Source: Oceanicaulis sp. HLUCCA04
Lineage (GTDB): Bacteria; Pseudomonadota; Alphaproteobacteria; Caulobacterales; Maricaulaceae
DNA: 64,000 bases
Direction: 5' to 3'
Assembly: GCA_001314625.1 (NCBI GenBank)
Contig: LJSH01000002.1
Coordinates: forward strand, 340,458 to 404,457
The notes under the pieces are model-generated. The model ran no database searches. It had not been told where the DNA came from and saw only the letters and a program-made list of their open reading frames with translations. How positions within the stretch are numbered: the stretch's first letter is position 1; each line of letters starts with the position of its first letter. The position numbers were made by a program, and so were the translations under genes. Positions 48,421 to 55,992 of this stretch are shown one piece after another.

Positions 48421-49529
48421 CCGCACTGAGCGTCTGCGCCGCCCCTGTGCTGGCGCAGGAGCCCGAACTGCCGCCGGGGCTCGCTGAACACGCGGAACGC
48501 AATCGCTCAGGCGAATCCGTGGAAGAACGCAGCCCGTCTGATCAGGCGATGGCCAGAGCGTCGGCAGCCTATGTCACCGGCGATTACTTAAGCGCGCGAA
48601 TCCATGCCGAGCGCGCGGCCGCCGTCGGCGAGCCGCGTGGCGCAACGCTTGCGGGCCACATATTGCTGCACGGCCTTGCCGGTGAGCCCGATGAGACAAG
48701 CGCCGTGCGCTGGCTGAACCGGGCCGGTGAGCAGGGCGAGATCGATGCACTGATCATCCTGGCCTCTTTGGCGGCGGAGAGCCGGGGCGGGCTTGAGCCG
48801 CATCATGCGCGCGAATATCTCAACAGGGCCGCCGGAACCGGCGATGCCAGAGCCGCCTATGAGCTGGGCACGTATCTGCGCGAGTCGGGTGATCCGGGTG
48901 TGGCGGCGACGGCGCTGGACTGGATGCGCCTGTCTGCTGAAGCGGGCCTTCCGCGCGCCATGGCCGCCTATGCGGCAGCGCTCGATGACTGGGTACACGG
49001 ACCCAACGATCCTGAGCTTGCCCGGCCCTGGTACATCCGTGCCGGAGAGGCGGGTGATGCGCCCTCTGCAGCGATAGCCGGCGTGATGCTGATAACCGGC
49101 GAGGGCGGCGCAGCCGACGAAGAGGCGGGCCGCGCACTGCTTCGCATGGCTGCCGAGATGAGCCTGCCTGCCGCGATGGGCGACTATGCCCTGCTGCTGA
49201 TGCAGGACGCCGAAAGCGGGGACGGGGATTACCAGCAGGCAGCCAGCTGGGCGCGTCGCGGCGCCGAAGCGGGCGATGCACAGGCGCAATTTCTGTATGC
49301 GGGCGCGCTGGCCACAGGCCGCGGTGTGTTGCGCGATATGGAACAGGCCTATGTGTGGGTCAGACGGGCGGGATATCCAAGGGATAACTCGCTGGATGAT
49401 GACCCCCAGCGTGAACGGCTGGAAGCCCAGCTTGAAGAGCTTTTTACCCACGACACGGTCAATCGGCTGGAAGCAGAGGCGTTGTCGGGAATGGCGCAGA
49501 GATACCGGCTCAATCCTGCTGGGGACTAG
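48354..49529 (+). CDS. Sel1-repeat exported protein
   Basis: 391 residues from GTG 48354. A signal peptide (RVWRAALGALAALSVCAAPV, cut near LAQ) precedes tandem Sel1-like repeats of about 36 residues, e.g. DETSAVRWLNRAGEQGEIDA, GDARAAYELGTYLRESGDPG and GDYQQAASWARRGAEAGDAQ. Sel1 arrays mediate protein-protein contacts in the periplasm. The first 67 bp overlap the end of thiE in a different frame, which is unusual because the signal peptide is encoded there; an upstream in-frame ATG (48267) would lengthen the overlap. Confidence 0.8.
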   Translation: MEPSGRSVGRRARVWRAALGALAALSVCAAPVLAQEPELPPGLAEHAERNRSGESVEERSPSDQAMARASAAYVTGDYLSARIHAERAAAVGEPRGATLAGHILLHGLAGEPDETSAVRWLNRAGEQGEIDALIILASLAAESRGGLEPHHAREYLNRAAGTGDARAAYELGTYLRESGDPGVAATALDWMRLSAEAGLPRAMAAYAAALDDWVHGPNDPELARPWYIRAGEAGDAPSAAIAGVMLITGEGGAADEEAGRALLRMAAEMSLPAAMGDYALLLMQDAESGDGDYQQAASWARRGAEAGDAQAQFLYAGALATGRGVLRDMEQAYVWVRRAGYPRDNSLDDDPQRERLEAQLEELFTHDTVNRLEAEALSGMAQRYRLNPAGD

Positions 49530-49578
49530 GTTCAGGCACACTGGCGGATCTGATCACCCCAGCCCGCCGGAGCCGCCC

Positions 49579-50097
49579 ATGTCTGATGCTTTTGCAAATG
49601 CCCTTGCCCATGTCCTCCTGCATGAAGGCGGTTATGTGGACCACCCAGATGATCCGGGCGGGGCGACGAAGTTCGGCATTACGCTCGGCACGCTGCAGGG
49701 CTGGCGCGGCCGCGCCGTGACGACGGCCGATGTGAAGGCGCTGAAGCAGGCCGAGGCGGGCGCGATCTACAAGGCGCGTTACTGGGATCAATGCCGGTGC
49801 GATGAACTGCCTGAGCCAGTGGCGTTCATCGTATTTGACGCGGCCGTCAATCACGGGCCCGGCCGGGCTGTCAGACTGTTGCAGGAAGCCTTGGGCGTTG
49901 CCGCCGATGGCCGTATCGGTCCGGTGACGCTGGCCGCTGCCAGTTCAGCAGAGCCTGTGGCCCTCCTCACCGGGATCGCCGCGCGGCGCATGGTGCTCTA
50001 CGCCAGTCTCGCTCATTTCCGGACGTTCGGCCTTGGCTGGTCGCGCCGTCTGATGGAGACGTTTGTGGCTGCACTCCCCACCAGCCTTGCCGCCTGA
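49579..50097 (+). CDS. GH108 lysozyme-like N-acetylmuramidase
   Basis: 172 residues. The glycoside hydrolase 108 motif LLHEGGYVDHPDDPGGATKF (catalytic Glu in EGGY) opens the protein and is followed by GIYKARYWDQCRCDELPEP-like sequence (seen as AIYKARYWDQCRCDELPEPV) and by a PG_binding_3 half (VNHGPGRAVRLLQEALGVAA, DGRIGPVTLAA). Such proteins are mostly phage endolysins or gene-transfer-agent lysozymes. No signal peptide, holin or phage genes are adjacent, so it is orphaned or domesticated. Weak ribosome site. Confidence 0.85.
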   Translation: MSDAFANALAHVLLHEGGYVDHPDDPGGATKFGITLGTLQGWRGRAVTTADVKALKQAEAGAIYKARYWDQCRCDELPEPVAFIVFDAAVNHGPGRAVRLLQEALGVAADGRIGPVTLAAASSAEPVALLTGIAARRMVLYASLAHFRTFGLGWSRRLMETFVAALPTSLAA

Positions 50098-51557: not shown

Positions 51558-51609
51558 CTGGGAGTCGGCGTTGAGCGTATTATTACCTTTACCTATTTAA
51601 CCCAGCATT

Positions 51610-52017
51610 CTAATCGTCTTCGTTTTCAACAGCTTCCCATTCTGCAAGGCGTTCCTCAGTTATCCAGCAGGTTTCGCCACGACGAAATCCATCAGCTCCA
51701 ACATATCGATAGTAACGCTCCCTGAAAGCGTCTAATGCGGCGTCGAACTGGACCATCATCAATAGTGCGTCGCTTACCTGGGGCAGCGATTCATTTTCCA
51801 AAATGTGTAAGTATTTTCCTTCGGGTTCCTGCTTTAGGAATGTCATTAGGTCATTGAGCACGTTGTTGATGAGCTTCACCTTGCTATCGCTAAGGGTTGC
51901 ATCCGGCTTCTTTTTTGACAATTCTCGCACTTCATGTAAGAGAGCCGCAAACATACCTTTTGCAGATTCATATATTTTAACGTTGGCCTCGGTCGTAGTA
52001 GCACCAAAATCTATCAT
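51610..52017 (-). CDS. Island protein C: small helical protein, paralog of the upstream gene
   Basis: 135 residues from ATG 52017, overlapping the previous stop as ATGA. Entirely helical and soluble by eye: YESAKGMFAALLHEVRELSK, KKPDATLSDSKVKLINNVLN, then LPQVSDALLMMVQFDAALDA and a C-terminal acidic tail. It aligns without gaps to the neighbouring 127-residue protein over 37 positions with 12 identities (this protein 26-62, the neighbour 20-56), so the two arose by tandem duplication. I recognise no named domain. Third and last gene of the island operon. Confidence 0.75.
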   Translation of the reverse strand: MIDFGATTTEANVKIYESAKGMFAALLHEVRELSKKKPDATLSDSKVKLINNVLNDLMTFLKQEPEGKYLHILENESLPQVSDALLMMVQFDAALDAFRERYYRYVGADGFRRGETCWITEERLAEWEAVENEDD

Positions 52018-52397
52018 TTCTTTCCAACTTTGCTTGGGGGTCCGGAACGAATATCGCTTGGTTCTCCGCCAACGACATACACCCACTTACCTTGCCAAAA
52101 TTTGACGTTGTCAGAGCGATAGCGTTCAGCCTCTTCCATGTACTGCGCAATGACTAAAGCGACGTCACTATTTGATGGCACGTCATCGAGCTCGAAGCCG
52201 TCGAAGTCTTCAAACGGGAGATAATTCGGCTTCAAAGTATCATTAGCAGATGAAACCACCTTATTAACTAGCCGCAATTTAAAGGAGTTCACCCCATCAT
52301 TGGGGGATTTTTTGGTTAAAAGGCTAATTTCTGAATGAAGGCCTTGAAGTTGGCCAATAAGTTTTTCAAGTTGTTCAACGTCATCTTTGTGTTTCAT
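52014..52397 (-). CDS. Island protein B: small helical protein, paralog of the downstream gene
   Basis: 127 residues from ATG 52397. An N-terminal coiled-coil-like helix (DDVEQLEKLIGQLQGLHSEI) leads into TKKSPNDGVNSFKLRLVNKV, the core shared with island protein C, then VPSNSDVALVIAQYMEEAER (sharing PxxSDxxLxxxxQ with its paralog) and a basic tail SGPPSKVGKK. No catalytic motif is seen. It begins 10 bp after the nuclease-like gene and overlaps protein C by ATGA, so all three are one transcript and B and C are made in linked amounts. Confidence 0.75.
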   Translation of the reverse strand: MKHKDDVEQLEKLIGQLQGLHSEISLLTKKSPNDGVNSFKLRLVNKVVSSANDTLKPNYLPFEDFDGFELDDVPSNSDVALVIAQYMEEAERYRSDNVKFWQGKWVYVVGGEPSDIRSGPPSKVGKK

Positions 52398-52407
52398 TTT
52401 GCACTCT

Positions 52408-53775
52408 CTAAGGGCACGCGCGCCTAAACTCCACGTACTTTTTTGCCACGACTTCAATAGGGTCGCGCTGTTTGCTGTCAAACACCTCTACCATCTGCTC
52501 TAGATCGGTATCAGTAAGGGTGACGATTGCCTTTCTCTGTCCTGACCAGAGGTCTATGGCTCGCTGCATAATCGCGCGCGTCAAGGGCGTTCGGCAAACA
52601 AATACTCCGAAGCGCCCAAGCTCGTCTGCCATGTATCGATTCAGCTGGTCGACGTGGGTGCGTTCCACAGCGGCGACATTCTTCATCTCGAACGTGATCT
52701 GCTTTGACCCATAGTCGGCGTGCAATTCCTGCAAGAACGGGGTGCGCCGGGTATTATAAAATATCAGATCACGGATGCTGACGCCGCTATCTGTTCGAGC
52801 TTGCAGCTTTGCAAAGTCGAGATTTGGGTACAAAAGCGACGGCAGGAGCTGACCCACCGCCGCTTCGTACTTCGCGTCAGCTCCATCTGTCTTGCCTGTG
52901 GGAAGCTTTTTGATCTGCGCCAGCTTCCCACGAGCGGATCGGACAGGGATTTGCGAGAAGAGCGGATCATTCACCGCGTCTTGGAACGCACGCTCCTTTG
53001 CCGCTACGTAAGCGGCGATTACCCCGTAATTATCCCGGTTGTATTGTAAGACCTCCACACGCGTGAGGTTTTCGGGTTCATGCGATATTTCGTCTTGAGG
53101 GCAGTGTTTCTCGAAATACTCTTCGTAGCTGATCCATGGGACGAAACGCAGCCAGCGTTTTGGCACCAGCAGGAGAGGACTGTTGTCCGTGGGATCAATC
53201 GGTAAGGTTGTTGTCACCTCAACGAATGTCCGGGACCGTGGGTCCCACACATTGCTTACTGTCTTGGGTTCGGTTGGTATGCCGAGCCGCCTGCACTGGT
53301 CTATTGTGAAGTCGATCAAAAATGACTTTAGGAAGCTGCAGGCGAAGTCGCTTATTCGATCCTTTGAGATGCCTTCCACGAAGAGCTGGAGTTCCTCAAT
53401 GTGGGAGAGGCCATGGGTCGCGTAGTGCGGAATACGGCGGAATATTGCTAACAGCTCCTCGGCTTTCGCCTTGCCTATTCGCTTTCCACGGCGGGTTGGT
53501 GACGAGCCTAAGCCAACCTCGTCGCATTCCGAAGCAGCAATAAGGGCATTGACGGCCTCGTCCTGTCTTCCAGTCAGGGCGAGTTGTCCAAGGTAGTTAA
53601 ATGCCGCAAGCAGCGCGCCGTGCAACGCCATGTCCTGCTGCGACGGAGAGCGCCACATCAGAAACGGATCGACGTAGAGCGGTATGTCCTCGCCAAAAAA
53701 AGGAATGGCGAAGTCGGCATCCTCCTGAGCCAACATAATACCGTGATAGTCTGTGAGGCGCGGACGAATGAGCAA
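52408..53775 (-). CDS. Island protein A: two-domain protein with C-terminal PD-(D/E)XK nuclease
   Basis: 455 residues. The N-terminal 300 residues (DADFAIPFFGEDIPLYVDPF at 20-39) match no family I know. The C-terminal part from about 302 shows the ordered PD-(D/E)XK set: helix KYEAAVGQLLPSLLYP with E304, D336 in IRDLIFYN, E363-x-K365 in ITFEMKNV, and Q377 in VDQLNRYM, the Mrr/restriction-enzyme pattern. The start is uncertain: TTG 53775 keeps a conserved-looking N-terminus, ATG 53736 is the alternative. Base composition here is clearly lower in GC than in the flanks. First gene of the operon. Confidence 0.8.
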   Translation of the reverse strand: MLIRPRLTDYHGIMLAQEDADFAIPFFGEDIPLYVDPFLMWRSPSQQDMALHGALLAAFNYLGQLALTGRQDEAVNALIAASECDEVGLGSSPTRRGKRIGKAKAEELLAIFRRIPHYATHGLSHIEELQLFVEGISKDRISDFACSFLKSFLIDFTIDQCRRLGIPTEPKTVSNVWDPRSRTFVEVTTTLPIDPTDNSPLLLVPKRWLRFVPWISYEEYFEKHCPQDEISHEPENLTRVEVLQYNRDNYGVIAAYVAAKERAFQDAVNDPLFSQIPVRSARGKLAQIKKLPTGKTDGADAKYEAAVGQLLPSLLYPNLDFAKLQARTDSGVSIRDLIFYNTRRTPFLQELHADYGSKQITFEMKNVAAVERTHVDQLNRYMADELGRFGVFVCRTPLTRAIMQRAIDLWSGQRKAIVTLTDTDLEQMVEVFDSKQRDPIEVVAKKYVEFRRACP

Positions 53776-53970
53776 CCTGCAGGCCCAATCCTATTTGCTA
53801 TTACGAAACTAAGTCGCGATTCGAATTAAGCAGTTAGTCTGCTTTCGCCCAAAAACAGCCAAGAAGCTTGTCTCTGATGGTCAAACGGGTCATGCCTTGA
53901 CCTGTTGGCGCGTAGCCGTCTGACGGTACGCGCGCTGCTTTTGGCCAGTATCAAGGGACCTGTCCGGCTC

Positions 53971-54993
53971 ATGCCCTCACGCGATCTGCCTTTGCCGCCC
54001 GAAACCCCGCAGCCGCGCAAGATGCGCTTTACCGGCCCCGGCCAGTACATCATCTGGATGGCAGTGTTTCTGGCTGTTGTGGCTGCCCTTGCAGCGGTCC
54101 TGCATGAGCCTCTGATCACAGCGTTTCAGGCCAATGCCGCGATCAATGGCGTCATCCTGGGCGTGCTGCTGATCGGCATTCTCTACACCTTCCAGCAGGC
54201 GCTGGCGATCGGCCCAAGCGCGCGCTGGCTGATCAAGCTGCGCGATAGCGCCCATCCCGACCAGCTTGGCAATCCGCCCGCGCTGATCGCGCCGATGGCC
54301 GCGCTTATCACCGATGCGGCGGACGGGCGGGCGCGCCTGTCGGCGGCCTCTGCCCGCGTCGTGCTGGACTCAGTGGCCGCGCGGATGGCGGAAAGTGGCG
54401 CGTTTACACGCTATTTCGGCCGCCTCCTGATCTTTCTGGGCCTGCTCGGCACGTTCTATGGCCTGCTGCTTGTGGTATCGGATGTAGGCGAGGCGGTACG
54501 CGCTGTATCGGCAACCTCGTCCGGTGCGGGCGAGGTGGAAGCGGCGCGCCTGATGGCGGCGATTGAAGACCCGATACAGGGCATGGGCACAGCCTTTGCC
54601 TCCTCACTGTTCGGGCTCGCCGGCTCACTGATCATCGGCTTTCTCGAGCTTCAGGCCAGCCGGGCGCAAAACCGTTTCTATAACGAAATCGAGGAATGGC
54701 TGTCCTCCATCTCGCGCCTTTCGGCTGCGGGCCCTGTCGGTTCTGGGGAAGGGGACAGCTCCAGCGCCTATGTCGGCGCGCTGCTGGAACAGACCGCCGA
54801 CACGGTCGACCGGCTGGCCTCCACCATGGAGCGCCATACCCGCCAGCTGGAGGTAACACTCTCGCGCTTTGCCGACGATGCCGCCGAAGCCAATCGCGAG
54901 GCTGCACGCCTCTTGCGTGACGAGATCAAGGTGCTCGTGCGTGCGCTGGAGGCACAGGCACGCATCAACCGGGACCGGGACGGGGATCGATAG
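53971..54993 (+). CDS. MotA/TolQ/ExbB-type proton channel protein
   Basis: 340 residues from ATG 53971. Three to four membrane helices: QYIIWMAVFLAVVAALAAVL, AAINGVILGVLLIGILYTFQ, FLGLLGTFYGLLLVVSDVGE and FASSLFGLAGSLIIGFLELQ, the last two being the MotA/ExbB core (GTxxGL...GMGTAFxSSLFGL). A C-terminal soluble helical tail follows (DTVDRLASTMERHTRQLEVT). It pairs with the OmpA-like gene 3 bp downstream; together they look like a peptidoglycan-anchored proton-driven complex. This pair is common in alphaproteobacterial chromosomes. The partner process is unknown. Confidence 0.87.
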   Translation: MPSRDLPLPPETPQPRKMRFTGPGQYIIWMAVFLAVVAALAAVLHEPLITAFQANAAINGVILGVLLIGILYTFQQALAIGPSARWLIKLRDSAHPDQLGNPPALIAPMAALITDAADGRARLSAASARVVLDSVAARMAESGAFTRYFGRLLIFLGLLGTFYGLLLVVSDVGEAVRAVSATSSGAGEVEAARLMAAIEDPIQGMGTAFASSLFGLAGSLIIGFLELQASRAQNRFYNEIEEWLSSISRLSAAGPVGSGEGDSSSAYVGALLEQTADTVDRLASTMERHTRQLEVTLSRFADDAAEANREAARLLRDEIKVLVRALEAQARINRDRDGDR

Positions 54994-54996
54994 ATC

Positions 54997-55992
54997 ATGG
55001 CGCTCTCCCGCCTGCAGCAGCTTCGCGAGCCTGATAACGGCGATTACTGGCCGGGCTTTGTCGATGCGCTGGCGACGCTGCTACTCGTCATTGTCTTCCT
55101 GCTCGCCGTGTTTGTGACCGGACAGTATGCGCTTTCAACCGCTCTGACTGGCCGGGACGAGCAACTGGCCGATCTCAATGCGCGCCTGGCCGCCCTTGCC
55201 GATGAGCTCAACATGGCCGAGGCGGAAAACGCAGAGCTGACCGTGCGGGTCAGCACGTTGACGGCAGAAAACGAGAGCCTGTCTGAACAGCTGGAGAGCA
55301 CGACCGCGCGCATCGGGGCTCTCGGTGAGCAGCTGGATGAGGCCGAAGAGCTGTCTGACGAGGCCCAGCTCACCATCGCCATGCTGTCTGAACAGATGGA
55401 TATTCTGCGCGAGGAGCTGGCCCGGCTCAATGCGGCGCTTGAAGCCTCCGAGGCGCGCGAGGAGGAGCTGGAAAGCCAGATCGTCAATCTGGGGTCACGG
55501 CTCAATGCGGCGCTGGCCAGCGAGGTGGCGCGCCTGTCGCAATACCGCTCCGACTTCTTCGGACGGCTGGTGGAAATACTCGGCAACCGCTCCGGCGTGC
55601 GCGTGGTGGGAGACCGCTTCGTCTTCGAGACCGATATCCTGTTCGATTCCGCCTCGGCCGAGCTTTCTGCCGAAGGCCAGGAGGGTTTGCGCCCCATCGC
55701 TGCGGCCATCATCCAGCTCACAGACGAAATCCCGGACGATATCGAATGGGTGATCCGGGTGGATGGCCATACCGATGTGCGCCCGCTGGGGCCGACGGCG
55801 CAGTTTTCGTCCAACTGGGAGCTATCGACCGCGCGCTCGCTTTCAGTGATCAACTGGCTGGTGGCCGAGGGCGTGCCGCCCAACCGTCTGATGGCAGCAG
55901 GGCTGGGCGAGCATTACCCCATCGCACAAGGGCGCACCGAGGCTGACCATGCCCGCAACCGGCGCATCGAACTGAAGCTGGAAGCGCGCTAG
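54997..55992 (+). CDS. MotB/OmpA-like peptidoglycan-binding protein
   Basis: 331 residues. One membrane helix near the N-terminus (FVDALATLLLVIVFLLAVFV) as in MotB plug proteins, with the conserved aspartate of FVDALATLL possibly the proton-binding residue; a long coiled coil (about 50-185: LAALADELNMAEAENAELTV and repeats), then an OmpA domain with RFVFETDILFDSASAELSAE and IRVDGHTDVRPLGPTAQFSS, GLGEHYPIAQGRTEADHARN and RRIELKLE. Partner of the MotA/TolQ-like protein. Confidence 0.9.
   Translation: MALSRLQQLREPDNGDYWPGFVDALATLLLVIVFLLAVFVTGQYALSTALTGRDEQLADLNARLAALADELNMAEAENAELTVRVSTLTAENESLSEQLESTTARIGALGEQLDEAEELSDEAQLTIAMLSEQMDILREELARLNAALEASEAREEELESQIVNLGSRLNAALASEVARLSQYRSDFFGRLVEILGNRSGVRVVGDRFVFETDILFDSASAELSAEGQEGLRPIAAAIIQLTDEIPDDIEWVIRVDGHTDVRPLGPTAQFSSNWELSTARSLSVINWLVAEGVPPNRLMAAGLGEHYPIAQGRTEADHARNRRIELKLEAR

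Follow-up and report, generated by a model that had tools for sequence, protein, structure and literature searches.

A horizontally acquired copy of the candidate phage defence module PDC-M36 in Oceanicaulis sp. HLUCCA04

What is the small, GC-poor group of genes that separates suhB from a MotA-like/OmpA-like gene pair in Oceanicaulis sp. HLUCCA04, and what might it do? The window, a stretch of 64,000 nucleotides, contains here an operon of three genes on the minus strand in the order A-B-C. Gene A (52408-53775) encodes 455 amino acids and is followed after 10 bp by gene B (52014-52397), which encodes 127. Gene C (51610-52017) is joined to B by an ATGA overlap and encodes 135 amino acids counted from that overlap. 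A preliminary description of the locus had proposed this structure, with suhB on one side and the MotA-like/OmpA-like pair on the other, and the three reading frames and both flanks were found to be as described. The start codon of A as read is TTG and the first ATG is codon 14. In the alignment, the similarity of A to its relatives begins before codon 14, at about residue 2-4, which favours TTG as the start. The pN/pS ratio against three homologous loci is 0.10-0.30 in A, B and C, a rough upper figure since synonymous sites are saturated, and it argues that none of the three reading frames has arisen by chance.

The trio is, as judged from sequence comparison, a clean horizontally acquired insert. 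The insert (51560-53838, no strand) is about 2.28 kb long, holds the trio only, without an integrase as had been noted earlier, and is absent in the congeners. The precision of its edges varies with the congener used for comparison, from a few bases to some tens of bases. The GC content of the insert is 50.4%, against a mean of 62.9% (SD 1.7, minimum 59.0) for 572 overlapping stretches of the same length from the remainder of the window; the counts on which the suspicion of foreign DNA was first based (23, 22 and 38 of 60 bases) are exact. An empty site, at which the motA-like gene comes straight after suhB, was found in all five congeners examined. None of these genomes has an M36A match, so the observation named beforehand as refuting, presence of the three genes at this locus in all relatives, was not made. 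In the closest congener the alignment breaks at about 51560 and 53839, and the breaks are less sharp in the most diverged one (L049). A is 85% identical to its counterpart in Erythrobacter longus and 82% identical to that in a Maricaulis MAG, while SuhB is only 54% and 70% identical, respectively, and this contrast is a signal of transfer. No direct or inverted repeats of at least 8 bp are shared by the two edge stretches, searched over about 200 bp to either side; 7-mers do occur. The composition, the empty site and the identity contrast all agree with the earlier view of a foreign insert.

The operon had been put forward as undescribed. A search of each protein with hmmscan against PADLOC-DB 2.0.0, one of the checks suggested at the time, placed all three in an existing entry, PDC-M36 (models PDLC04597-04600). 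A matched PDC-M36A with 730.5 bits (1.8e-220), residues 2-455 corresponding to positions 3-456 of the 457 in the model. B and C both matched PDC-M36B, B with 158 bits (2.2e-47, best model PDLC04599) and C with 124 bits (6.3e-37, best model PDLC04600), and each of them also matches the best model of the other. The locus thus has a full-length M36A match and adjacent M36B proteins on the same strand, with gene order and strand as in the homologous loci. There is no real difference from PDC-M36, though the library gives one name to B and C, which form distinct, paired paralogue clades. The operon is accordingly real and correctly read, but it is one more example of a candidate already catalogued rather than a new discovery.

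The abbreviation PDC stands for phage defence candidate, and the source cited for it is a preprint of 2024 from Payne and co-workers (both according to PMC11514479). In PADLOC-DB, too, the defence role of PDC-M36 is a candidacy. A literature search whose scope did not extend to the founding PDC preprint gave no paper naming PDC-M36 and no published activity. Other databases added little. For the proteins encoded in the window, no row from Pfam or NCBIfam reached the cut-offs, the PHROGs matches of A are to families of unknown function, and a BFVD search gave no match at E <= 0.001. At the sequence level, the PDB returned nothing or only weak rows for A, for the profiles A2 and A1 and for the superfamily profile A8; the best PDB row, a designed helical protein, was obtained for B/C at 0.037. 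The reading favoured here, with somewhat better than even confidence, is that this copy of PDC-M36 is an acquired, self-contained module of three proteins including a nuclease, directed most likely against phages or other mobile DNA.

The C-terminal part of A (residues about 274-455) is, according to sequence alignment, Pfam matches of homologues and a structural model, a PD-(D/E)XK nuclease domain of the BspD6I/FokI type with its catalytic residues present. The motif codons lie at 52645-52866 on the minus strand, counted from the start of A at 53775: E304 at 52864-52866, D336 at 52768-52770, E363-x-K365 at 52681-52689 and Q377 at 52645-52647. All five residues, which the preliminary description had placed correctly, are invariant in the 22 sequences aligned, A and 21 homologues with 50-86% identity. 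The Pfam family PDDEXK_3 matches 16 of the 22 (best E 6e-5); A is not among these. The AlphaFold2 model of A has a mean pLDDT of 81.4, with values below 50 for residues 1-5, 26-31 and 268-278 and of 60-95 for ten-residue blocks across the nuclease domain (281-455). In the model, residues 296 to 434 form a core of alternating helix and strand. With VIA-align, the C-terminus of A could be placed on R.BspD6I2 (2p14; Z 12.6, rmsd 3.1, 151 residues) and on FokI (Z 11.9, rmsd 3.5, 152 residues), both above the background Z of 7-8. Because Foldseek by itself gave nothing (no PDB match at E <= 0.001), the fold assignment relies jointly on the motif, the Pfam matches of homologues and VIA. The nuclease call thus holds. 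As to its qualification as Mrr-like, the best structural matches are R.BspD6I2 and FokI, and Pfam Mrr_cat matched only one of the 22 sequences (E 0.21). The likeness to the cleavage domains of R.BspD6I2 and FokI is one of fold; the match is limited to the C-terminus of A, with 10-12% identity, and the insert differs in having no methyltransferase partner.

The nuclease domain was also found in another setting. A Klebsiella phage record (L041, 1971-4040) encodes an ATPase-like protein of 689 amino acids that ends in the M36A nuclease domain, its residues 511-651 matching M36A 286-425 (E 9.8e-14), while its N-terminal part has no M36A match. The same nuclease domain on another N-terminal part is a case of domain shuffling. 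Klebsiella plasmid places that match L041 are annotated as 'ATP-binding protein' or hypothetical.

The two small proteins are, judging by their alignment and tree, ancient paralogues that travel with A. B and C are 19% identical, and in 36 rows E23, K30, K40, N45, P74, S77, D78 and Q85 are invariant. In a tree of the 36 rows, the 19 B and the 17 C sequences separate without exception (support 1.0), so the duplication predates the split of the lineages sampled. The C-terminal tail is basic in B and acidic in C. The model of B (pLDDT 94.8) has three helices and three strands and gave no Foldseek match in PDB at E <= 0.001. The mycobacterial proteasome activator Bpa, the best VIA row for B, was not counted as evidence, its Z of 8.1 being inside the helical-bundle background.

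The three genes behave as a unit, as had been supposed. Relatives of A were found at 25 GTDB loci, and at 24 of them both small genes lie beside A, in unchanged order; the remaining locus (L024) has no more than a fragment of A. The carriers are recorded as Alpha- and Gammaproteobacteria, Bacteroidota, Lachnospiraceae and Nitrospinota. Not all copies are intact: a stop interrupts the first part of A in L009, L020 is split over several frames, L021 and L023 contain part of A, and the third reading frame is short in L009 and L010. IMG/VR gave two further loci with A, B and C (L033 and L035), the records L028 and L029 being repeats of L005 and L008. Among plasmids, B and C each match three records of the collection, the same three that have a full-length A. 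In a sample of 398 genomes drawn from the phylum, the M36A model matches 19, 17 of them at no more than 151 bits and the other two above 730 bits, and the B/C profile matches exactly these two. Among 14 control genomes the M36A model matches one, Synechococcus elongatus. Over 16 loci, the distances measured for A, for B and for C are correlated with one another (0.77-0.92), and none of 2000 permutations reached such values; the correlation also reflects the shared descent of the loci.

The N-terminal domain of A (residues about 1-270) is mostly helical and has conserved acidic residues. Much of it, residues about 1-230, is shared by more distant proteins, thirteen of which were aligned with five M36A sequences. 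Eleven positions never vary over these 18 sequences (D30, P37, E83, G90, S92, G97, D139, D143, L153, T157 and P205), and four more hardly do (D36, S142, P192 and K206). Four of the six invariant polar residues (D30, E83, S92, D139, D143 and T157) are acidic. The VIA rows for A lie mainly over the nuclease domain and yield no fold assignment for the N-terminal one. Nine of the thirteen distant relatives were scanned and all match M36A models (E 1e-12 to 5e-50), with scores far below those of true members. Eleven of the thirteen (L036, L038, L040 and L090-L097) have, by eye, a C-terminal D...E-x-K region, and thus combine the M36A N-terminal domain with a PD-(D/E)XK-like C-terminus; the seven of these that were scanned match the M36A model with E values of at most 4.5e-19. 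They share the signature D30, D36-P37, E83, G90-x-S92, G97, D139, D143 and T157 (D36 is E in L095), but are only 18-26% identical to A and have no B/C match in the flanks fetched. Indeed, B/C matches at E <= 1 are missing from the flanks of all thirteen loci; these flanks cover about 0.7-1.5 kb at eight loci and 2.5-3.5 kb at five. Such relatives suggest that the N-terminal domain and the nuclease can work without partners, and B and C are therefore more likely to tune or direct A than to complete its fold.

The remaining two relatives, of about 315 amino acids and without the D...E-x-K region, are the M36A N-terminal domain alone. They are encoded on a Bacillus plasmid (L037, 3498-4445) and a Curtobacterium plasmid (L039, 3459-4403), and a type II restriction-modification pair is found near the latter.

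A protein of this build could also be a restriction enzyme that senses modification or ends, of a type IV-like or Shedu-like kind. The N-terminal domain of A would then sense modification, ends or structure to recognise foreign DNA, which A would cut, and B and C would be accessory DNA-binding or assembly subunits and not inhibitors. The FokI/BspD6I-type domain is consistent with this, as are the relatives that join both domains without B/C, one of which (L090) weakly matches SduA (2.9e-4). So is the methyltransferase count: there is none in the insert, and no methyltransferase model is among the 11 matched at 1e-10 by 62 proteins of the window. Shedu is a single gene with an N-terminal part and a PD-(D/E)XK nuclease. 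However, A matches no SduA model (DUF4263) up to E 1, and the nuclease domain of 8ti9 gave a Z of 7.3 against A, within the background range. Nor has A any Pfam match up to E 1, and hence no known DNA-reader domain by that search. This alternative is considered unlikely. The lack of a methyltransferase argues in addition against ordinary restriction-modification; under the favoured reading of a gated defence module, the cell's own DNA would be spared by gating, or else by DNA state or modification, rather than by a cognate methylation mark.

The surroundings of the trio differ between carriers. Reading frames of at least 110 amino acids were scanned around 24 of the 25 GTDB loci, that is, all except L020 (a 4.3-kb fragment). 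At 1e-10, 103 neighbour proteins from 10 loci matched 75 PADLOC models and 113 from 14 loci matched 115, the models named being the first 25 of each list. A single control set of 116 proteins, from 10 arbitrary stretches of carrier genomes out of 19, matched two models, mad3 (2.3e-102) and mad8, with one protein each, and these may themselves be defence genes. The model counts give the direction of the difference and not its size, as a single protein may match dozens of models; one PtuA-like neighbour alone matches 68. When ten hand-picked neighbours were scanned singly, four matched, namely type II methyltransferases (L003 and L009), a PtuA-like ATPase (L018) and, weakly, DrmC (L022), and six matched nothing. 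In an all-against-all comparison of neighbour reading frames, setting aside those that overlap the trio (antisense frames included), the widest recurrent cluster is an ABC-type ATPase from four sources (the loci L002, L010 and L036 and another part of the window), and the other clusters have two sources each. In the window itself, 62 of 65 script-chosen reading frames were scanned (B, C and one short frame were left out), and the 11 models belong to PDC-M36, Zorya-like ZorA/ZorB, MzaA, mad3 and mad8 only. Apart from PDC-M36 these are not taken as defence because the rest of each system is missing, so that no credible defence system stands beside the trio in the 64,000 nucleotides. Defence-type genes are thus seen, with one control set for comparison, around some carriers elsewhere, but not in this window.

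The neighbourhoods bear on whether the trio is instead an addiction module of toxin-antitoxin type, in which A is a toxic nuclease and B and C its antidotes, self-persistence is the main function and phage defence is incidental. An operon that pairs a nuclease with constant small neighbours, occurrence on plasmids and a lone, compact insert would all suit such a module. For a classical toxin-antitoxin system, however, a first-encoded protein of 455 amino acids followed by two antidote candidates is unusual. The 13 distant relatives of A without B/C match in their flanks indicate that the architecture is not always partner-dependent, and some homologues lie near restriction-modification, PtuA-type or other defence genes. 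The addiction reading is rated as rather unlikely.

Two plasmid copies raise another alternative. On a Methylobacterium plasmid (L042, 4931-8131) and a Leptolyngbya plasmid (L043, 4160-8188) the trio comes just after umuC-type or umuD/umuC genes; the DUF4113 found there is presumably part of UmuC. An SOS link of these two copies is possible, and their position on the two plasmid backbones speaks for a nuclease of DNA repair or the SOS response with no immune role. Yet in the all-against-all comparison the UmuC-type cluster is confined to these two plasmid loci, and the distribution is patchy, with the trio in two of the 398 genomes and in none of the five congeners. A repair function is very improbable.

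Under the favoured reading, that of an acquired defence module, B and C would form a heterodimer that binds A and holds its nuclease off in the uninfected cell. When the N-terminal domain of A meets a phage cue, B-C would release or direct the nuclease, and A would then cut DNA. The target might be limited to phage DNA or might include host DNA, the latter amounting to abortive infection. The heterodimer, the gating, the phage trigger and the cleavage by A are all inferred. A bolder version, built on the conserved acidic residues and rated as rather unlikely, is that the N-terminal domain is a metal-dependent enzyme of an undescribed fold, and that B/C, an obligate heterodimer of duplicated proteins, was added as a gate to a formerly solitary nuclease. 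M36 would in that case be an effector with two active sites, giving nuclease immunity without methylation and without a nucleotide second messenger.

What the locus provides is a natural copy of the candidate that is intact and has clean boundaries, with the catalytic residues named and the empty site mapped. To the PDC-M36 entry it adds that B and C are separate, paired ancient paralogues and that the N-terminal domain of A is common to nucleases without B/C. As nucleases of both kinds exist, the role of B/C can be tested directly by comparing them. The candidate module is real and worth testing.

Two observations concern the flanks. The MotA-like/OmpA-like pair (53905-55992, plus strand) appears to be what matched the ZorA and ZorB models (3.3e-12 and 2.7e-24), as judged from the model names. 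Zorya was rejected for it, since no ZorC or ZorD was found at 1e-10 in the window and the motA-like gene with the start of the next gene is conserved in all five congeners; annotation tools may nevertheless wrongly call the pair a partial Zorya. Further out, the second half of a reading frame at 49276-50097 (plus strand) resembles a phage-type peptidoglycan hydrolase.
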